Assembly: GCA_030789695.1 (NCBI GenBank) | Contig: CM061133.1 | Span: 93,409,248 to 93,473,247, forward strand | Source: Scilla litardierei | Lineage: Eukaryota > Streptophyta > Magnoliopsida > Asparagales > Asparagaceae | Length of the DNA: 64,000 nucleotides | Reading direction: 5' to 3' | Shown: piece after piece, positions 43,324 to 64,000 of the stretch | How positions within the stretch are numbered: the first letter of the stretch is position 1 | How the letters are laid out: each line of letters begins with the position of its first letter | The notes under the pieces: generated by a model | Told to the model about the DNA's origin: nothing | Seen by the model: the letters and a program-made list of their open reading frames with translations, nothing else | Databases searched by the model: none | Made by a program: the position numbers and the translations under genes

Positions 43324-45800
43324 TGTCACGACCCGCTTCCCTGAAATGGAGGCGAGACGTGAAAAGGTCCGCACGGGAGTGGAGCTGTGAAGCCCCAAAC
43401 CCGATAAGCGTCCACAATACATAAGCAGGTCCTTGTAACCACAACAGAATAGCAATAATAACACAAGGCGAGACTGAAATAAAATTCCACATCCCACAAA
43501 TTGTCCAACATCAACAAAAGTCCAACATCCAGAAAAGCCACCAGGCTAAAAGAAAAGAGTCTAAAGGCCCAGAACAAGGCCAACAAAAGAAACGAAAACA
43601 ACCAAGTAAAGTATAGGTGCCACGCACCGATAACGAAACAACTGTCTAACAAAAGTAAAACACAACGAGGACACTAGGACTGGTCCCCAGTGTCCACGTA
43701 CTCCCCGTCAAACACAAGCACGGGCTCGGCGTCAGCAAACACCTCGTCCTCAACTAGTAACTCAGGCTCGGGCTCTAACATGTGTCACCCAAAAGAGAAA
43801 AGGGGCACATGTCAGCAAGTCGAAAGACTTGTGCAAGGAAACGGGAATAATGGTAAACTAGCAACCTAGCAATTAAATCATGGTGCATGGCAATTAAAGT
43901 ACGGTGGTAACAAGTGAGGTAAAGGAGAGTACACGTGGCAAGTATCAAGTAGTAGGGGTGACATGTAATGTCAAGTAACAAGTAAGGTAGAGTATAGTAC
44001 AAGTGGCGAGGGGTTGTTGTGACATGTAATGTCAAGTAACAAGTACAAGTACAAGGGATCACTCAACGAGTGCCCTATTGCCCGCAGGCTGTGTTCAAGT
44101 ATCAAGTACAAGGGATCACTCAACGAGTGCCCTATTGCCCGCAGGCTGTGATGAGCTCGTCTTCTGGAACACGAGCCAGAAAGTGTAATCGATGAGTATG
44201 GCGTAGGGGTGCACCTAGCCGGAACAAGTAACACTAGTATGTAGCGATGGTACGCAATCACGATGAGTATTCAAGCATGCAATGACATAAGCAGATAATT
44301 CGCATACCGTTAATTAAATTAAACGTGACAGGCGAAATGCAATGACATGAACATATTCGCGTACCGTTTATTTAAAATAAACATGACAGTTAAAATGCAA
44401 TAGCAGTTAAGGATGCATGGATGACATGAACATTTATTACGCGTACCGTTAAGGGAAATTAAACGTGACATACAAGCATGATGAAGGTGACGGACCAAGC
44501 TTCGTTGACAAGCTAGGTCAATGGCGTCTAAACGGCTATCCTTTCACCGTCTAGTCTCTTTTACGCTAAAGCAAGGTAAATGGCCTAAGACATGGCCCAA
44601 ATCAAGAGATGCAAGTTTCACTTGCCTAACACCGGGGATTTACGATCACTTCGTCACACGGATGCTATCTACGGGGGAAATCGCTGTTATGGGGGAAACA
44701 AGCACCAAACACTTGAAATTAATTAGGGTTTCACCAAAATTATAAATGAGTTATAAAAACAACGGTAGATCGATTTCTTACCGAGAGGAGACGGAAGGAA
44801 CACTCCGGGGAACCCTAGGATCAGATCTGGAAGCGAATGGAGAAGTTTGGGGAAACTAGGGTTTTGGGTGATTTTGGGGATTTGATGGATTTTGGGTGTG
44901 ATTTGAGGAAGATGAGAGGTAGATAGGGTAGATGGATGGTTGGGATGATGGATTAAGGGCTTGGAATGAAGCAATGGAGCTTGGAGGAAGGTGGGGGATC
45001 AATGGGGGCGATTTTAGGGTTTAGGGTCGAGTTGGAGGGGAAGAAAACGTTTGGGTTGGGTATTTATAGGCTAGGCTGGCGGCTAGGGCAAAACTAGGGT
45101 ATACAGCACTAGTTAGTCGGTCAAAGAACAACCACTGACCGACTAGTTTGACAACTAGTCGGTCGGTCGACCAATGCAGACCGACTAAGTGTAAACAGTA
45201 GCTACAGGTGAAATTAGGATCTAGAATTAGTCGGTCCATGAACAAGTACTGACCGACTAGTTTAGCATCTAGTCGGTCGATGAACGTTCTTAGACCGACT
45301 AAGAGTAAACAGTAACTGATACAAAAATAAGATGATGAGTTAGTCGGTTCAAGAAGCATTGCTGACCGACTAGTTTGCAACCTAGTCGGTCAACCAACGT
45401 TCTTCGACCGACTAACGATAAACAGTAGCTTCTTCAGAAAATTAGAAAGCTCACTATTCGGTCCAAGAAGGATTGCCGACCGACTGGATCGTCATCTAGT
45501 CGGTCGGTGGCCCTTCTTACACCGGCTAATGAGCACAGAAAAGTTCCGATACGGAGCGCGAGGCCCCGTGATCGAATCCTAAGACTCCTAGGCTTGATCT
45601 AATAGTTAGATATGACCGTTATGAAGTCCGTCACGAGTGACATACTTCGAAATCGACAATCCTAAGGAAGAAGTGAGAAAATACGACGAATCGATCGAAA
45701 ATGAAATCTACGGAGACGAAAACCACACACAGAGGAGAAAATCCACCAAAACATATATTATATTATATTATAATCAGATACAAGAAAAGCAGTCGTTACA
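43324..45800 (-). repeat. 5' LTR of element T
   Basis: Same length as the other LTR (2477 bp) and almost identical; examples of differences are ggagctg against cgagctg near 43380 and cactattcggtcc against cactagtcggtct near 45454. TATA box on the minus strand at 45061-45068, palindrome array at 45114-45522. Confidence 0.95.
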
Positions 45801-46104
45801 TCGAGTGAGTCAGGATTTCTAAAAGAGATCGAAGCCAACTCTCTGGAATTTTGGGGAGCAGAGCAGAAGACCTACTCGACCGAGGAGAGAAGTCCACTCG
45901 ACCGAGTGAGAAATCCCACTCTATCGAGTGACGGAGGCGCTAGACCCCCAAAACCCATATCTTCTATGTTTCTATTTGGGTCTGTCACTCGGTCGAGTGA
46001 GATTCCCACTCGACCGAGTAGCGCCGCCAGCCTGTATTGTAAACTAGGGTTCTGGGCTGCGCCAGGGACAAATCTGTCAGCGTTTTTTGGTTGTTTTGGG
46101 CATG

Positions 46105-46111
46105 TATTTAA
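46105..46111 (+). promoter_or_regulatory. TATA-like box of element D LTR
   Basis: tatttaa within gtatttaagccc, 83 bp after the palindrome array. The same word at the same spacing occurs in LTR E (59993-59999) and, reversed, in H (51379-51385). Confidence 0.65.
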
Positions 46112-46455
46112 GCCCAGTTTTCATCCTAGTTTAGAGAGAGACCAGGACATAGATTTTAGCTTAATTCTAGTTGTAATTCCCCTTAGGAGATTGAAGAACA
46201 CGAATCTGGTTTGTTATTTTTTATTGAAATTTCGCATTTTTATGAATCGCTTTCTTCAAAATCTTCATTGCTATATGTTTTCATTTATTTATTTTGCTAT
46301 TGCTATGATGAATCGTGAGTAGTTTCGTTGTTCTATGTCACAGGGATGAACCCTACGGATCCAATTTTAGAATTGTGATGAATTGATTTCTTTGTTGCTA
46401 GAATTGTTTGAAGGTTAGGTTGTGATTGATTTATCACGGATAGCTAGGAATTTCC

Positions 46456-46755
46456 ATCGATTTGGGGTTTGCAAGAGATTGGATTCCTATCGATTTGAAG
46501 GCTTAGATATTCGATTTAGGTTTATAATCGAAATTCACTAGACTTGGTTTGCAAGAGATTGGACCAAAGCTAGCATTTTTATTATAAACCTATACCCATA
46601 TTCGTTTGCAAGAGAATGGACGAATACGAGCTATCACAATCTAGATCATAACTCGAGTTTGCACGAGAGTGGGCTCAATGAGCGATTGAACGATGATGTC
46701 GATCCTCATGCTAGTGGCTTAGGTTAGGGTTTGCACGAGAGTGGGCCCTAATCTA
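46456..46755 (+). other. Five loop-sharing hairpins in LTR D
   Basis: Loops at 46469, 46549, 46606, 46659 and 46731 read ttgcaagagattgg or close variants. Stems include TATTCGT/ACGAATA (third unit), CTTGGT/ACCAAAG (second) and TAGGTTAGGGT/GCCCTAATCTA with wobble pairs (fifth). Homologous to 60388-60688 with different stem sequences. Confidence 0.75.
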
Positions 46756-47109
46756 GGTCGCTATAGACCGAAAATAGCGAGAGAGCATAAGCTTAGTTCT
46801 CTATTGAGTTACGACTAGTTCACCTCAATCCAAGTCTCGCAACATTGAGATTCATGATTCACAAAGATAAATGACAATCCGTAGTGGGAATTCCCCAGCC
46901 CTAGACGCTTTTATTATATTTAATTTGAATTGTTAATTGAACGAATGTGACAACAACATCCGATAAACTATCCTTCCACCAATAGCTTAGTGATCAAAAT
47001 AGAGTATCGTCATTAGTCCCTCCTCGTTTTCGATACCTGCTCGTCGCTACACCGTGCGCTTGCGGTAAAACTAAGACAGCCTCCTGGGTGTGTATCCGGC
47101 GGCCGATCA

Positions 47110-47167
47110 GTCGACTGACCCATCGACCTTACGGCTGGGGGCAACTCCCCCAGCAGGTCGGCCATAT
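47110..47167. repeat. Tat2 tandem-repeat fragment, left piece
   Basis: About one and a quarter monomers (ggctgggggcaactccccca core) of the array seen in Tat1. Continues at 57795 after the nested F/G block. Confidence 0.75.
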
Positions 47168-47582
47168 ATTTTTTAATAATTTGAACTTATGCTTATGGTA
47201 TGCCATGCTTTGAAATATTAGTATATTATTCATATCTACTAACTTTGTGTTGAATGAAAATTATCTTGAAATATTTTTGAATTTTCTTGATGGAAGAAAT
47301 GATATCCAACTTTTAAATGTTTGTTGAATAAATCTTAGTTGTTTATGGCTGTAATGTTCAACATATCATTTTTATTTGTCATCTTTTTGATTGATGACAA
47401 GGGGAGAAAAGAGTAAATGAAAAAAATGAGAATGAATATCTTTTTATGCTAACCGGCTTTAATGCAGGGTAAATACCTCATCTAAGATGGGGGAGTAAGT
47501 TATCTTACTCGGTATTTTATTGAGCTAATATTCATTTATTCATCTTTTTTTATCTGGGTGTCATCATCAAAAAGGGGAAGAG
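47168..47582 (+). other. 3' end of a SIRE-like Copia interior, element F
   Basis: AT-rich, ending tcatcaaaaaggggaagag directly before an LTR, the polypurine tract text typical of SIRE-like elements. Because it precedes rather than follows the LTR of F, it belongs to an adjoining copy or to a tandem (three-LTR) arrangement. Confidence 0.55.
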
Positions 47583-49277
47583 TGATGGGAAATTGAATCC
47601 CACCCCAAAGTGGTTTTGATGATGAACACACCAAATGATGTTAGTATACTAATTACACTACAAGTTAAGTGTGCAGGTTGAGCGATCGATAGCTTTATGC
47701 ATACTCCGAAGAAGCTCAACCACACTCAGAAGACGGAGACGAATTTACAAGCTTTACGTCAAGTACAAGTATAGCTCAATGATGAAGCTCATGCAAGTGC
47801 TCAAGCTTAATGAAGAAGAGCTCAAATTCAAGAGAAGCGAACATCTACTTCAGCATCTAATCAGCTTTCTGAAGGTCTCTTCTAAGTCTAGTGTGAGTTA
47901 GTTTCTTTAGGACCATGTTAAAGCCATGCAAATAATGCGCACACACACAAAATGCTTTTAAAGCAAAAACATTTTTAAATGTTTTTAAAACTCTTGAGAG
48001 CATTAGCTAGTTGATTTAATTCTTAGTATTCAACCTCCAAACACCAAAGAGTTGATTACACATCTTGCTAGCCGAGTTTCAATGAGAAGTGCTCTGGGAG
48101 TCGACTACCAAGGGAGGGAGTCGACTACCAGCTAAGCAGAGTTTTTCAATGAAATTCTCTGGGAGTCGATTACTTCGGTAGGGAGTCGACTACCGCTGTC
48201 GTTTTTCTTCTACGATTCTGCTTCCTGATTTCACTTCATTTCCTTATTTGATTGGACTGAAATTCAATCTTTTTTGAAATTTGAAATCCTTTTGAAACTC
48301 TATAAATAGGAGCCTCATTGAGATCATTTTAATATATACCAATCTCTCTATTCTTTGAGGTACAATTCTGATCTAAAACCTCTCATCGCTCTTGTTTGCT
48401 CTCAACTTTAATAGCCAAATTTCTGTTTTAATATTCTGACCTCAGTTGTTATGTCTGAATTTCTTTTGAGATCAATCTTATACTTTGGCTATTTTAAAGT
48501 TGTTTTTAAATTCCATACTCTTTAATTTTCATTCTTGAAAGGATTTTGAAAACTAGAGATCTAAATCACAACGAATCATCTCATATTCTTTGTGTGATCT
48601 AAAGATCGATTTAAATTCTTTTAGCGACGTAAACGCACAATTCCGATATTCATTTTGGCTATAGAATTTCGGGTGTAAACCAATCTCCATCAAATAATGT
48701 AGAGAATTGGATTTTTGTTTGTATTTGAGATTCCCCTTTGAGATAAGGGACGATGTAAATCCTAGACAAGTCTAGGTGGTTGGAAATCCTAGTTAAGGCT
48801 GGGTCGTTGGAAATCCTAAGGAGTGAAGTTATGTAATTGTACTGCTAAGGCAATAGTGGATTAAATCTCGTACCGGATTGGTCGGAGACTGGACGTACCC
48901 GGGTTGCAGGGAACCAGGATAAAATCGTTTGTCTCTGTGTTTGTTTTTCTGTGATTGTTTATATTTCTTGTACAAGCATTTTTTTATTTGCTAAGATTAT
49001 ATCTTTGTAATTCCTTGTTCATTTATTATTGCAAAGATTATTTCTGCTATGTAAAGATCTATTTGTAAAGATCTCTTATCTGATTGTAATCTTTTCTCTT
49101 TCATATTTTTGTAAGATTATTTTGTTAATTAAGAACCAAGCGTAGTTCACTCTACTTGGTTTCTTAGGAAACATTAGAAGGGTTTTATTTGTGCTATTGT
49201 TGACAATAAAAAAAGTTTATTATTTGAACAACATTATTTAACCCCCTAGTGTTGTTTGCCATCCACAGGATCCAACA
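47583..49277 (+). repeat. LTR of element F (1695 bp)
   Basis: Starts TGATGGGAAATTG after the polypurine tract and ends GGATCCAACA. TATA box TATAAATA at 48301-48308. Its downstream portion matches 56813-57794. A degenerate initiator-Met site, cttggttcaaag, follows at 49278. Confidence 0.82.
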
Positions 49278-49305
49278 CTTGGTTCAAAGTAATGCTTGAA
49301 AGGCG

Positions 49306-50351
49306 ATGGCATCAACATCTTTCCACTATGAAGGATTCAACACCATGCGACCACTGTTGTTCAATGGAACGAACTACGTAAGTTGGAAGATAAGCATGAA
49401 GACTCATCTAGAGTCACGAGAATTGAAGCATGGATCGTCTCCAAGGATCTATACAAAGCACCCACTGAAGTTGAGACCGAAAAATGGTCTGTCGATGAAA
49501 AGAAAAAGGCCAACCTCAACACCAAAGCGATGAACATATTATTTTGCGCTGTGATAGGAAATGAATTCAATCGTGTCTCTCAATGCGAGACTGCACATCA
49601 GATATGGGATACTCTTCTGGTAAGTCATGAGGGAACCGAAAAGGTAAAAGAATCCCGTATTAATATCTCGCACTCTAAATTTGAATCATTTAAAATGGAA
49701 AAAGGAGAGAGTATCACCGATGTGAATATTCGTTTTACTAACATCACTAATGAGCTCGCAGGTCTAGGTAAGAAATTATCTGAGTATGATCAAGTAATGA
49801 AGATACTAAGATCTCTCAGACCCGAATGGAAGGGAAAGACAATAGCCATTCGAAAAGCTCACAACGTGAAGGATCTCACCATTGAAGAACTAATGGGAAA
49901 CCTCATGGCATATGAGATAGAACTTGAAGAAGACAAGATGATATAAGAAAAGCCAAAGAAATAGAAACTAGCGTTCAAAGCTCAAGGCGAAGACTCCAAT
50001 TATACTAACAAAGAAGACCACATTGCTTTTATCTCAAAGAACTTCAAAGATTTTATTACAAGTAAATATGATAAACGTGCATTTCTTCCACTAATAGTAT
50101 TATCTGTTTTGGTTGCAACAAACCAGGGTACGTGAAAAGAGACTGTCCCTTGAAAAAGAACAACCGAGACTCCAAAGACCGTGGGAAGAATAGAGAGAAC
50201 AATGAAAGAAGGAGCGATAGAAGGAACAAACTTCGACGACCAAGGAAAGAAGCTTATACAGCTTTCGATCAAAGCGATGATTCTTCATCAGACGAATCTT
50301 CATCAGAGGATAAAGACGATAGAAGAGAAACAGCCAATATGTGTTTCTTAA
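49306..50351 (+). pseudogene. SIRE-like Copia gag, first part, element F
   Basis: Starts MASTSFHYEGFNTMRPLLFN with PLLFNGTNYVSWKISM. After a frameshift near 49420 it continues with AMNILFCAVIGNEFNRVSQC, TAHQIWDTLLVSHEGTEKVKE, FESFKMEKGESITDVNIRFT and ILRSLRPEWKGKTIAIRKA, a UBN2-type Gag. Stops follow at 49944 and beyond. In the zinc knuckle CFGCNKPGYVKRDC (50104-50145) the histidine is tyrosine. An acidic serine-rich stretch follows and the text breaks off at ANMCFLM, where LTR H is inserted. Confidence 0.82.
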
Positions 50352-52131
50352 TGATCACTCCCGGATATACACCCAGAAAACAATTATAGTTTTACCGCAA
50401 GTGCACGGTCTAGTGGTGAGCGGGTATCGAACACGAGGAGGGACTAATGACGGTACTCTATCGTAATCACTAAGCTATTGGTGGAATGGCGAATTTTGTT
50501 GTTGTCACAATCGTGATATAATGACAATGGTGATAGATGTCGGTGTCGGTGATAAAGATGTTGTTCAATTCAGTAGTCTAAAAGTGTCTAGTGCTAGGGA
50601 ATCCCCACTACGGATCGTCATTCATCTCTGTGACTCGCGAACCTCAATGTGGCAAGACATGAATTGAGGTGAACTTGTCGTAACTAAATAGAGAACCAAG
50701 CTCACGCTCTTGCGCTATTGTCGGTCTATAGCGACCTAGATTAAGGCCCACTCTTGTGCAAACCCTAACCTAAGCCACTAGCATTAAGATCGACATCATC
50801 GTTCAATCGTCCCTTGAGCCCACTCTCGTGCAAACTCAAGTTACTATCTAGATTGTGATAGCTCGTATTCGTCCAATCTCTTGCAAACAAATATGGGTAT
50901 AGATTAATAGTAAAAATGCTAGCTTTGGTCCAATATCTTGCAAACGAAGTCTAGTGAATCTCGATTATAAATCTAAATCGAATATATAGCCTTCCCATCA
51001 ATCAGAATCCAATCTCTTGCAAACACCATATCGATAGAATTCGTAGTTATCCGTGATAAATCAATCACAACCTAACCTTCTATCAATTCTAGAAACATAT
51101 AAATTCATTCATCACAAATCTGAAATTAGATCCGTAGGGTTCATCCATATGCCCTAGAATAGCAAATCTACTCACAATTCATCAAGGCAATAACAAAATC
51201 AATGATAGAAATCATATTGCAATTCAGATTTAAAACAGAACAATTCATAAAAGTGCAAATATTCAAAGGAATAAACAAACCAGATCTGAGTTCTTCAATC
51301 TCCAAAGCTCAAATTACAATTAGAAATAACCTACAATCTATTTTCTGGTCTCTCCCTAAGCTGGGATGAAAACTGGGCTTAAATACATGTGCCCAAAACG
51401 GCCAAAAAGTCCTGACAGAATTGCCCCTGCCCAGAACCCTAGTTTTCGACACAGGCTGGCGGCGCTACTCGGCCGAGTGGAAATCTCACTCGGCCGAGTG
51501 ACATACCCATATAAAAAGAGAGAACTTGGGGGTTTGGACACTCTGGCACTCTGCGTCACTCGGCCGAGTGGGATTCATCACTTGGTTGAGTGGATTTCCT
51601 ACGCGGCCGAGTGGGTCTTCTGCTCTGCTCCCCAAAATTCCAGAGAGTTGGCTTCGATTTCCCTTTAGAAATTCTGAATCACTCCGACGAGTGGAGTTTT
51701 CTACTCGGCCGAGTGGAATTATCCACTCGGTCGAGTGGACTATGGCACGAGTTATTTTCGTATCAGTTGTACTCGGCCGAGTACGCTTCTTCACTCAGTC
51801 GAGTGGATTGCGTACTCGGCCGAGTGGCCTGTTTCTGGAAGCTACTCTTCTCCTCCTCGTCTCTTCTTCGATTCTATCGATATTCTTCTTCTTCCGGTCA
51901 TCATCCAACGCTGTTAGCTCCTCGATAAGGCCATGGGCGATGCTACGGTACGTGTGCAAGTCCCTTAATCTCATTTATGCTCCCGATCGCTCCATATTTC
52001 TAGAAATCCGACAAAAACAAGAAATAATAAAAAGCAACGCAATATCGTCGAATAATCGTGAAAGCGCTATATGGGCGATCTAAATGGTATGCAAATATGC
52101 AGAAAAAATGGTGTAAAATATGGACCGATCA
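50352..52131 (-). mobile_element. H: solo Athila-like LTR within F, minus strand
   Basis: 1780 bp, TGATCACTCCCGG...GGACCGATCA, homologous in reverse to LTRs D and E. Contains five hairpins (about 50741-51029), a minus-strand TATA-like box (51379-51385) and palindromes (51473-51830). No clear target duplication (cttaa against cctag), so later rearrangement is possible. Confidence 0.85.
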
Positions 52132-59232: not shown

Positions 59233-59527
59233 TGATCACTCCTTATTTTACACTTTTTTCCCGCATGTTTGCATGCCATTTTGATCGCACAAATCATGTT
59301 TTTCACGATATATCGATGATATTGCGATGCTTTTCACGATTTGTTGTTTTTGTCACATTTCAGGTGATTTGGTGCAATTTGGAGTGATCTCGAGATGCAC
59401 TTACTCCGGAGGGTCACCGACGACCTCCCCAAGGGGTATTTTGCTGTTGGAGAGGAGCGGAAGAAGAAAGAACGTCACAGGAGTGACGAGGAGGCCAAAA
59501 CAAACTGTTTGGGCATTTTTAGTGTCC

Positions 59528-59909
59528 CACTCGGCCGAGTGAAGGAGTCACTCGGCCGACCAGCGAGACACCGCTCGGCCGACCAGATCAGACACGATTC
59601 ATATGTGCACTCGGCCGAGCGACGGAGACCACATCGGCTGAGTGACGAGATCCCGTCCGCCCGAGTGGCGCCCAGACGAAGCCATTCAAAAATCGCCAAC
59701 TTTCTGTTTTTCGGCTGCCTGAGCTTCAGAAGACCCACTCGGCCGAGTGGATAATCCCGACCGCCCGAGTACCAAGAAGCCATCGGCCGAGTGACGACAA
59801 CTCACTCGGCCGAGCCGCCCCCGAAGTGAAGACCCCTGAAGATCGAGACTTACTGGAAAATTACAGGGTTTCTCACTCGGCCGAGCGACTTTTGTCACTC
59901 GGCCGAGTG
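59528..59909. repeat. CACTCGGCCGAGTG palindrome array in LTR E
   Basis: Perfect 14-bp palindromes at 59528-59541, 59736-59749 and 59896-59909, with about eight degenerate copies between them. Short frames across it repeat LGRV or TRPSE-like words and are not genes. Confidence 0.9.
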
Positions 59910-59992
59910 CGACGCGCTGCCTGTAGCGAAAATTGCGGATTTCAGGCTACGCAGGGGTATTTTGGTCACAGTGTTTGGACGATTTTGCGGGG

Positions 59993-59999
59993 TATTTAA
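59993..59999 (+). promoter_or_regulatory. TATA-like box of LTR E
   Basis: tatttaa within ggtatttaaccc, 84 bp after the last palindrome. Conserved in D and H at nearly the same spacing. Confidence 0.65.
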
Positions 60000-60387
60000 C
60001 CCCTGTTTTTACCCTAGTTTGGGAGCTTTTCTCTTAGATTTTTGCAGCTTTTTAGATTAACTTTTTAGCTTTATTCTTGTGATTGGAGAGGAGACAAAAG
60101 TTGATTTTTGTTGGATTATTTGAAGAACTCAATTGGTTTGCCTCTCTCTTCTCCAAAAATTCTATTTTTATTGCTTATCTCAATATTGTGATGAATTCTA
60201 TTGCTTATTTCATTGATTATTCTTGTGTTTGTGCTATGAATTACGAGTAGTCTCCACGTCTTGGGGCGTGGGGATGAACCCTACAAGCCCAATTTCATAT
60301 TTGTGATGAATTGGTAGAAATTTTGCTAGAATTGTTGTTAGGGATTAGTTTGGGATCGATTTACTATGGATAGCTAGGATTTCATAC

Positions 60388-60688
60388 CGATTGGGGTTTG
60401 CAAGAGATTGGATCCCAATTCGATAGGAAACCCTAGATATCCGAATTGGGTTGGAATCGAATTTCCGTAGTATCGGTTTGCAAGAGATTGGACCGATACT
60501 AGGGTTTCCGGTTGCAATTCCATGCCGATACCCGTTTGCAAGAGATTGGACGGGTAGGAACTATCCCAACCTAGGTCACGGTCCGAGTTTGCAAGAGATT
60601 GGGCTCGGTGCACGATTGAACGATGATGTTGATCCTAATGCTAGCTTCCCTAGGCTAGGGTTTGCAAGAGATTGGACCCAAACCTAGG
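60388..60688 (+). other. Five hairpins with identical 14-nt loop in LTR E
   Basis: Loop ttgcaagagattgg at 60398, 60478, 60536, 60589 and 60662. Stems: ATTGGGGT/ATCCCAAT, TAGTATCGGT/ACCGATACTA (10 bp perfect), TACCCGT/ACGGGTA, CCGAGT/GCTCGG (one wobble), and GGGT/ACCC within CCTAGG/CCTAGG. They lie 400-700 bp downstream of the TATA-like box, so in the RNA leader. Confidence 0.85.
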
Positions 60689-61053
60689 ATAGCTATAGAC
60701 CGGCAACAGCGCGAGAGCGTGAGCTTGGTTCTACATTCAGTTGCAACTAGTTCATCCAAAATCTTATTCTATCAATTTTGATACCCATGAACCACATTTA
60801 CGAAATACGGTGAGTAGCGGGGATTCCACATTCCCTAGACGTTCTTTATTTTATTTGATATTTCCGTACTTTGTCTGACGATTGTGACAGGATCGCCAAA
60901 GGCAAATTTCTCTCTTCTTAAATAGCCAGGTTGATTGGAACAAGCACGGTCATTCGTCCTCCCTGTGTTCGATAACCCGCTCGCTGCTACACCGTGCACT
61001 TGCGGTAAAACTACAACCGTCGCTCCGGGTGTGTATCCGGGGCGCGATCAAGT

Positions 61054-61075
61054 TTTTGGCACCGTTGCCGGGGAG
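61054..61075 (+). other. Primer binding site of element E (Athila/Tat type)
   Basis: TTTTGGCACCGTTGCCGGGG three bases after the LTR end, the well-known primer site text of Athila and Tat elements with one change (GGCACC for GGCGCC). Confidence 0.88.
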
Positions 61076-61220
61076 GGTATTTTGATGGTGTTCGACATCG
61101 ACCACCCGGTTATTTCTTCTTTCTCTCTCTCTTTACTTCCTTCTATATCTTGTCGTAACTTTGTTCGTAGCCCTATTCGCATATTCTCCCCGTATTTTGC
61201 ATAAGATCTTAACAGGGAGA

Positions 61221-64000
61221 ATGGAGGATGCAATGTCAACAATAGAACTCAGTCAGGAAGACTATGACTCCTTCACAGACCTCCTTAAGGAGCTTGTCGA
61301 CGAGGTCCACGCTACCGGAGCTTTTGCTATCGATATCAAGGACCCCGACGAACAGCTGTTTGCTAGTTTTGTGATGGACCAAGTCTCCCCGGATGGGACT
61401 ATCGGAGGCAATGTCAGAGTTGATGTGATCGAAGACAAATTATATTTCGAAGACGGTAGAACAAGCGTCAAAGAACACTATACTTCCGAAGAATCCTTCG
61501 AGCAAACCGGCATTCAGGGAGTTACGCTATATGACGCCCACTCTTGCTTTTATGAATCATCTGATGTGTTTCTTGATTCCAGGCACGAACCAGAACAGAG
61601 TGAGGGTTTTGACGATGCTAGCACAGAATCGGAGAGCGCCTATTTCGATGCATCGTCCTCACTAAGTAGTGAGTCTGACTCGTCACAAGAGAGCGCACCA
61701 CCTGAACATGAGCTAAACCCGGATGACGAGGAAGAAGCCAAACTCATGCGAGCTGATGAAGTGGAAGGAGCAGCGCCTCTTGAGGTAGAACTTAAACAAT
61801 TACCTCCGAATCTAAGGTATGCTTTTTTGGGTAATAAATTAACTTTCCCGGTGATAGTCAATTCCCACCTCACGCAAGATCAACTTGAAAAACTCCTAGA
61901 CGTTCTTAGGAGCCACAAAGATGTCCTGGGATACACTATCTCCGATCTAAAAGGGATAAGCCCTAGGCTTTGCACGCATAGGATCCATTTGGAGGATACC
62001 GACGCCACCTCCATAGAGCCTCAAAGGCGGTTAAACCCGAACATGAAGGAGGTGGTTAAAAAGGAAATCCTAAAATTGCTAGACGCCGGTATTATTTATC
62101 CTATCTCCGACAGTAGGTGGGTTAGCCCCGTTCACGTCGTCCCCAAGAAAGGGGGGATGGCAGTCATAAAAAATGAAAAAGGTGAGCCCATATCTACGCG
62201 CACAGTCACGGGATGGCGAATGTGCATTGACTATAGGAAACTCAATAAAGCCACCCGAAAGGATCACTACCCATTGCCCTTCATTGATCAAATGCTTGAA
62301 CGCCTAGCAAAACATAAATACTTTTGCTATCTAGATGGGTATTCGGGATTCTTCCAAATCCCTTTGCACGAAGACAACCAAGAAAAGACCACTTTTACTT
62401 GTCCCTACGGTACCTACGCCTACCGTAGGATGCCGTTTGGTCTTTGTAATGCTCCCGCCACTTTTCAGAGGTGTATGACATCCATATTTTCCGATTACAT
62501 TGAAAATATTATGGAAGTTTTTATGGATGATTTTTCGGTTTATGGGAGTGAGTTTGACTCTTGTTTGGCCAATCTTACTAAAGTCCTTAAAAGGTGCCAA
62601 CAAAATAATCTCACTCTAAATTGGGAGAAGTGTCACTTCATGGTCACGGAAGGTATAGTCCTCGGGCACCTTGTTTCCTCAAGAGGAATTGAGGTAGATA
62701 AAGCAAAGATTGAGGTAATCGAAAAACTTCCTCCTCCTATTAATGTCAAGGGCATTAGAGGTTTCCTTGGTCATGCAGGGTTTTACCGTCGCTTTATCAA
62801 GGATTTTGCCTCGATTGCCCGACTACTTACTTCCTTGCTCGCTAAAGATACTCCTTTTATTTTTTCAGGAGAATGCTTGCAAGCCTTCAACACCTTGAAG
62901 GAAGCACTAGTTTCCGTGCCCATCATTCAACCACCGGATTGGAGCCTTCCCTTTGAGCTAATGTGTGATGCTAGCGACCAAGCCATTGGGGCGGTATTGG
63001 GACAAAGAAAAGATAGGAAGCTTCATGCGATACACTACGCGAGCAAGACATTGGATGACGCGCAGAAAAACTACACAACTACCGAAAAGGAGCTTCTAGC
63101 GGTCGTCTATTTCATAGAGAAGTTTCGCTCCTACCTCCTTGGTTCCAAGGTGATTGTCCACACCGACCATGCGGCGTTGAAGTATCTTTTAAACAAGAAG
63201 GAGGCCAAACCTCAGTTGATTAGGTGGATACTCTTGTTGCAAGAATTCGACTTAGAGATCAGAGACAAGAAAGGTACGGACAATGTCATGGCGGATCACT
63301 TATCTAGGCTCATTCACGACAAGGAGGATGAGAGTTTGCCTATCGACGACACATTTGTGGATGAGAGGCTATATGCCATAAGGACCGGTGAAGTACCTTG
63401 GTACGCGGACTTCGTCAACTACTTGGCTTGTGGAATTAAACCGCATGGGATGCCTACGCATCAAAAGAGGAGATTTCTGCATGAGGTCCGTAGCTATTTT
63501 TGGGAAGATCCATACCTTTTCAAGATATGCAAAGATAGTGTCATTCGTAGGTGTGTTTCTAAAGAGGAGGCAACGTCCATCATTTTGCATTGCCACGGTC
63601 TACCATGCGGAGGACATCATGCCGCCTCTAAAACTACCGCTAAGATCTTGCAGAGCGGATTCTTCTGGCCAACAATGTTTAGGGACACCCACGCTTTTGT
63701 GAAGGGGTGCGATCGATGCCAACGGACCGGGAATATCTCTAAGCGCAATGAGATGCCAATGAGACCCTTCCAAGAAATTGAGCTTTTTGATTGTTGGGGA
63801 GTAGACATCATGGGACCATTTCCGTCAAGCAATGGTAACAAATACATCCTATTGGCCGTTGACTATGTCTCCAAATGGGTGGAAGCAATCGCCACCCCAA
63901 CTAATGATGCAAGGGTCGTCTCCAAGTTCTTCAAGCAAAATATCTTCCCACGCTTCGGAGTGCCTCGTACCTTGATAAGCGACGGGGGAAGCCATTTCAT
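61221..64000 (+). CDS. Athila-like RT-RNase H-integrase polyprotein, element E, open at window end
   Basis: At least 926 codons without a stop. Residues 1-190 are acidic and serine-rich with no recognised domain; no zinc knuckle or protease site. RT starts near 193 with [11 protein letters not shown], then [59 protein letters not shown] and catalytic VFMDDF (Asp436, Asp437). RNase H has Asp583 in MCDASD, Glu624 in TTEKELLAV and Asp649 in HTDHAAL. Integrase has the zinc finger ending CDRCQ (Cys830), catalytic Asp862 in WGVDIMGPF and Asp921 in SDGGSHF; the window ends before the glutamate. The ATG is the first in frame after the PBS. Intact motifs suggest recent activity in trans with a Gag donor. 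Confidence 0.95.

Follow-up and report, generated by a model that had tools for sequence, protein, structure and literature searches.

In retroviruses, Psi includes 5′ leader hairpins whose purine-rich tetraloops, such as the GACG loops of murine leukaemia virus, are bound by Gag, and in the phage MS2 the coat protein binds sequence-specifically to an operator hairpin with a bulge below its tetraloop. The array of hairpins analysed here, which lies in the long terminal repeat (LTR) of a retrotransposon, resembles the MS2 operator in this layout of bulge and tetraloop and differs from it in the sequences of both. It differs from Psi, in which the hairpins are fewer and stand in differing contexts, by presenting five copies of one 16-nt tip.

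The packaging signal of alphaviruses is described as a run of stem-loops, eight of them predicted, with GGG at each tip, and excerpts of that account state that structure, motif and loop number affect packaging specificity (PMC5869531). The present array is likewise a series of stem-loops sharing one short tip motif; however, the alphavirus signal belongs to another class of virus, lies in the nsP1 coding region, has GGG as its tip in place of a bulged helix with GAGA, and was tested for function, whereas the array is known from sequence. According to excerpts on the barley copia elements BARE1 and BARE2, the Gag-less BARE2 is packaged in BARE1 particles and is said to retain conserved signals for dimerisation and packaging (PMC3735527). 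The likeness to the scenario proposed below lies in a Gag-less family using the particles of another family; the differences are that these elements are copia, not gypsy, and that BARE2, which lacks Gag expression, may be otherwise translatable. No five-unit hairpin array appears in the excerpts of that account. LARD elements, in the excerpted literature, are large non-coding LTR derivatives presumed to be mobilised in trans (PMC7215508, PMC4558846); they differ in that these excerpts describe no repeated tip motif, and the short family reported below was matched to no named LARD. Packaging signals of LTR retrotransposons are characterised there as difficult to recognise and as conserved in structure alone (PMC4558846), and the cis-acting packaging sequences of yeast Ty3 are said, in an excerpt, to lack precise definition (PMC11381356). 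In excerpts of the open-licence literature, including PMC10418216, we found no description of an array of this kind, subscription journals lying mostly outside that literature.

According to our analysis, the RNA structure of the array is almost certainly real, and we infer that the array acts in cis as a domain for RNA recognition and is probably a packaging signal. In the 64-kb window (the whole stretch of Scilla litardierei DNA that was analysed, 64,000 nt), the 14-mer TTGCAAGAGATTGG occurs in five exact copies, at 60398, 60478, 60536, 60589 and 60662. The hairpins that carry it span 60391–60682 and combine this one 14-mer with five different stems; the repeat family around it is 28 nt long and has five copies at spacings of 80, 58, 53 and 73, with complementary arms flanking each. 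An earlier sequence-only reading of the locus had described five identical 14-mers between complementary arms, and all of them were confirmed in place. At up to three mismatches, the 14-mer has 28 matches in the window, compared with 8.2 ± 3.0 in dinucleotide shuffles (0 of 100 shuffles reached 28), and ten of the 28 fall in two related LTR copies, B and C (Table 1). The array region folds at −134 kcal/mol versus −110.6 ± 5.9 for 100 shuffles, which is 3.9 sd better. The 16-mer TTTGCAAGAGATTGGA has 139,488 exact copies in the assembly and its reversed control has none. Chance or simple repeats as the source of the array are ruled out by the shuffles and the genome copy counts.

The array sits within the LTR about 350–660 nt before the primer site, and the 3′ LTR of the same element lies at C4:93488406-93490223. 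In the window copy, TATTTAA precedes the first hairpin tip by 404 nt, and among 13 copies having enough flank, 11 carry it 330–450 nt ahead of unit 1. We take the primer site TGGCACCGTTGCCGGGGA to be complementary to tRNA-Asp and of the primer type of the Athila lineage; sites of this type (up to four mismatches) were found in all eight other element interiors. Reverse transcriptase (RT) and RNase H precede integrase between the paired LTRs, which is the Ty3/gypsy order; the element is thus of Ty3/gypsy type and, to judge from its primer site, plausibly of Athila lineage. Relatives of gag occur in many plants, and the name “Athila” was absent from the 120 listed of 195 gag relatives. Between primer site and RT, no gag match was detected in the window element; this element (61057–63998) lacks the match though its LTRs are 98.6% identical and it belongs to the gene-bearing cluster defined below. 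When the LTR of the window element (copy A) was compared with copies B and C, the array was among the better conserved blocks, the LTR end and neighbouring stretches being comparable. Rfam gave no match at gathering score in the window, and 59900–61200 gave sub-threshold matches with E-values above 1.

Three further observations concern the surroundings. The palindrome CTCGGCCGAG, embedded in ACTCGGCCGAGTG, recurs many times in U3 (59527–59910) and perhaps represents transcription-factor sites. At 45113–45544, four direct repeats about 114 bp apart each contain inverted GTCGGTC/GACCGAC palindromes. At 45951–51535, two LTRs belonging to the short-element cluster are inverted relative to each other and are 82–89% complementary over four blocks.

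Table 1. Features of the window (positions count from its first letter).
Feature	Position	Strand	Basis
LTR copy B, second array (cluster of short elements)	46469–46744	+	motif matches, cluster membership
LTR copy C, third array (cluster of short elements)	50748–51022	−	motif matches, cluster membership
5′ LTR of window element, 1818 bp	59233–61050	+	98.6% identical to 3′ LTR (1818 bp), no gaps
TATTTAA, probable TATA box	59993–59999	+	sequence; promoter role inferred
Stem-loop 1, tip motif 60397–60412	60367–60443	+	RNAalifold, 111 copies
Stem-loop 2, tip motif 60477–60492	60447–60522	+	RNAalifold, 111 copies
Stem-loop 3, tip motif 60535–60550	60529–60556	+	RNAalifold, 111 copies
Stem-loop 4, tip motif 60588–60603	60562–60625	+	RNAalifold, 111 copies
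Stem-loop 5, tip motif 60661–60676	60627–60705	+	RNAalifold, 111 copies
Primer binding site	61057–61074	+	sequence
Open frame with RT, RNase H and integrase domains	61161–63998	+	domain matches; runs past window end

For comparative analysis, 120 stretches fetched from the same genome were combined with the three window copies to give 123 sources. The tip motif itself was the reason for choosing most of the fetched stretches; the sample is therefore not an unbiased census, and the apparent conservation of the tip is inflated. The full five-unit array was present in 114 of these 123, mostly motif-selected, sources, at nearly constant spacing: the first interval is 80 in 109 arrays and the third 53 in 110, while the second is mostly 57–58 and the fourth mostly 72–73. 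As for the nine others, L244 holds no LTR and eight show two to four units, some of them being truncated by the ends of the stretches. All 114 arrays entered the arm-swap tests; three near-identical ones (L249, L264 and L267) were removed for the fold, tip and tree statistics, leaving 111 copies. Over the aligned leader, the 114 arrays fall into two clusters, of 58 and 56 members, which differ from each other by 20.7% on average. Scans with a single motif gave one match in each of the 80 listed stretches (of at least 120) from viral contigs and likewise in each of the 80 listed (of at least 115) from prokaryotes; we read these isolated matches as chance, and a two-motif scan of viral contigs gave none.

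In the RNAalifold consensus of the 111 copies, the array forms five consecutive stem-loops within a 340-nt fold (60367–60705), and the hairpins are the tips of these larger stem-loops, three of which are 76–79 nt long. The fold has 119 pairs with 95.4% of cells paired, as scored on the same 111 copies from which it was derived; 20 of the 119 pairs show compensatory types, every type occurring in four copies or more. The consensus energy is −159.7, whereas 20 column shuffles give −87.6 ± 4.8 and the antisense strand gives −113.8; single copies fold lower as sense RNA in 110 of 111 cases. These results support the earlier proposal that the sense RNA is structured here, with stems that vary and a tip that is conserved, in the LTR and 3′ of the TATA-like site. 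In sliding windows over the LTR (up to 60 rows, 12 column shuffles each), the array has the lowest energies, with z from −4.1 to −11.0; the windows 60127–60286, 60187–60346 and 60847–61006 also beat their shuffles (z −10.8, −5.8 and −5.5), so conserved structure may extend beyond the array, both upstream and near the LTR end.

Pooled units resolve the tip into a GAGA tetraloop closed by a 3-bp helix, with a UG bulge and two further pairs below. In order, the tip reads U-U, bulged U-G, the helix CAN/NUG enclosing GAGA, then G-R: positions 5-6-7 pair with 14-13-12 around the tetraloop, 1 and 2 pair with 16 and 15, U3-G4 is bulged, and U2-G15 is a wobble in nearly all units. The 14-nt loop of the sequence-only reading is present in all five units, but it is not open, since it folds internally. 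It had also been called invariant, which holds for the five window units, whereas a comparison of copies shows covariation between positions 7 and 12 of the 16-mer: A-U, C-G and U-G are seen and mismatches are rare. Among the 151,902 genome matches of all kinds to the 18-mer pattern GTTTGCANGAGANTGGRC, position 7 is C in 30,433, with G12 opposite in 29,966 and a non-G in 467, and A7 has a non-T partner in 589. The A-U and C-G forms are both common in unit 4 of cluster 2 and in unit 5 of cluster 1; thus the switch arose more than once or was copied between units.

The remaining tip positions vary little in these motif-selected copies: in 555 units, the bulge has T at position 3 in 552 and G at position 4 in 544, and tetraloop positions 8–11 are G, A, G and A in 543, 552, 546 and 551. 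A loop of any GNRA type is not favoured, as GAGA was counted in 473 of 499 units and GAAA in three, again in copies chosen with GAGA motifs; units picked for a C/non-G mismatch were excluded from this tally and from that of positions 7 and 12. Fixed differences between the two clusters occur at 2 of 80 tip columns, 8 of 60 stem columns and 28 of 200 spacer columns (tips vs. spacers, p 0.0045). Stem columns thus differ between clusters about as often as spacer columns, and tip columns much less.

The stems nevertheless remain complementary. Native arms, taken over the six pairs beneath each tip, are complementary in 90.3% of cells, compared with 49.8% when arms are swapped between units of one array, and the native combination is the sole best of 120 in 97 of the 114 arrays, one other combination equalling or beating it in 17. 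Switches between C-G and T-A characterise whole groups of copies, for example at pair 3 of unit 2, pairs 3 and 4 of unit 3 and pair 5 of unit 4. Whether stem changes are paired beyond chance is a refuting test named by the sequence-only reading, and on total pairing the structure survived it. Total pairing exceeds a tree-based null: with the fold conditioned on one copy and the rest simulated (200 simulations, three reference copies), paired cells exceeded all 200 simulations for each reference (z 3.9, 3.1 and 5.4), and the number of cells changed on both sides yet still paired was reached in 2 of 200 for each. For pairs doubly changed in at least four copies, the result was borderline (7, 11 and 11 of 200). 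At the level of single column pairs (G-test, average-product correction, tree-scattered substitutions), 0 of the 119 structure pairs were significant and none outside the structure, which we attribute to the raised background that two deep clusters create. RNA structure is conserved above sequence in this sense, though several of the compensatory changes may be single events separating the two clusters.

Wobble pairs give a further hint. Within clusters, the ratio of G-U to A-C is 18:24 among private stem variants and 36:13 among those shared by at least two copies, so that shared variants favour G-U (Fisher p 0.005 vs. private variants, 0.003 vs. spacer transitions); 8 of the 100 cluster-unit-pair combinations, having a non-Watson-Crick majority, were skipped in this tally. 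The G-U share shows no excess over the tree null (48, 185 and 67 of 200) and falls below the null mean for one reference, and the frequency-class excess is therefore only suggestive.

The array is shared by two kinds of elements. An anchor between hairpins 4 and 5 has 13,098 exact copies, of which the first 100 places were examined. There, neighbouring same-strand anchors of the T form lie 9.0–11.2 kb apart in 22 of 26 pairs, whereas for the C form the distance is 5.5–6.3 kb in 7 of 7. Among four elements of about 10 kb (first 4 kb, parts of the frames scanned), two gave matches to both gag and protease, a third to gag and the fourth to protease; in four of about 5.7 kb, a single ORF per element was compared with Pfam and none matched. 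Cluster 2 includes the LTRs of five elements on the gene-bearing side (ten LTRs, the window element included), and cluster 1 those of all four short elements checked. Comparison of interiors (the first 4 kb for long elements, 3 kb for the window element) revealed common sequence between long and short ones only in matches of 26–56 bases around the LTR end and primer site, L400 excepted. In its positions 1–439, L400 has primer sites at 30 and 420 and a short-family-like stretch at 8–304, followed by another LTR end before the gag region; judged by this arrangement it is a nested or recombinant copy.

Relatives without recognised genes have thus retained the array (four interiors, one ORF each compared with Pfam). 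The longest ORF of the short family has no homologue and no NCBIfam match, and an interpretation of it as a diverged Gag was rejected, there being no similarity to the Gag region of L398. Its differences by codon position show no bias against L394 (42/35/41) or L397 (41/29/41); against L396, in a shorter and gappy alignment, they are 21/169, 29/171 and 42/173 at positions 1–3, and going by this pattern the ORF may be under some coding constraint. The C1 loci L394–L397 represent this family of about 5.7 kb with the same five-hairpin LTR, which is possibly LARD-like and Gag-dependent.

We lean slightly towards a plausible scenario in which the array is a 340-nt sense-RNA domain whose tips are bound in trans by Gag or nucleocapsid, the short elements being packaged by another family. 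In the sense transcript, five stem-loops would present one identical tip; a protein acting in trans, most likely Gag/nucleocapsid, would bind the repeated tip multivalently; this binding would select genomic RNA for packaging; and the short elements, which keep the array, would be packaged by the proteins of another family. Five sequence-specific tips on sequence-free stems in sense RNA do resemble a multivalent protein dock, and retention of the array by elements without recognised genes points to a cis function that depends on proteins provided in trans. The alphavirus GGG stem-loops (PMC5869531) and BARE2 in BARE1 particles (PMC3735527) are the analogies, as far as the excerpts of both accounts go, by which packaging by Gag is the best fit. 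An identical motif repeated in sense RNA would also suit a host-factor element whose tips would attract an RNA-binding protein of the plant, so that unspliced element RNA is exported from the nucleus, stabilised or translated. Simple retroviruses offer a parallel in their constitutive transport elements, and both kinds of elements must at least export their full-length RNA. We nevertheless regard it as unlikely, and a purely translational version fits poorly with a short-family ORF that has no Pfam match and no codon bias against L394 and L397. The position of the array in the LTR, ahead of the primer site, would agree with a reverse-transcription or 3′-end element in R or U5, acting in strand transfer, primer placement or poly(A) site choice, and an array inside R would stand on both RNA ends; such a role alone, however, leaves five copies of one sequence-specific tip unexplained, and we consider it distinctly improbable. 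Conserved structure in the sense RNA would result from export, translation or 3′-end roles just as from packaging.

Dimer initiation by kissing TTGCAA palindromes had been suggested by the sequence-only reading. TTGCAA is present in all five window units, and yeast Ty3 has been proposed, in the excerpts of one account, to dimerise via an apical palindrome, CUGCAG (PMC11381356). The palindrome proved to be neither exposed nor conserved, however: it is intact in only 361 of 555 units, its CAA half is paired in the tip helix, and the common CAC/GUG variants keep the helix and lose the palindrome. With its palindrome half buried and unconserved, the kissing-loop model becomes very improbable. Just as improbable is a feature at the DNA level, whether cruciforms, transcription-factor sites or a by-product of repeat duplication. 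Palindromes do occur elsewhere in the LTR (CTCGGCCGAG in U3), but this explanation is largely contradicted by a sense fold far better than the antisense one, by the wobble U2-G15 within the tip of nearly all units, and by stems that diverge at the spacer rate yet remain complementary.

Returning to recognition by Gag, we tentatively suggest that a multivalent Gag dock is exploited by a gene-less parasite family, and that this may explain much of the spread of the element in a 3.7-Gb genome. With its near-invariant tip, fixed repeat number and natural comparison of gene-bearing and short elements, the array is a sharply defined candidate signal. How the Gag of a plant retrotransposon chooses its RNA, and how parasites steal it, would thereby become testable in vitro with short RNAs.
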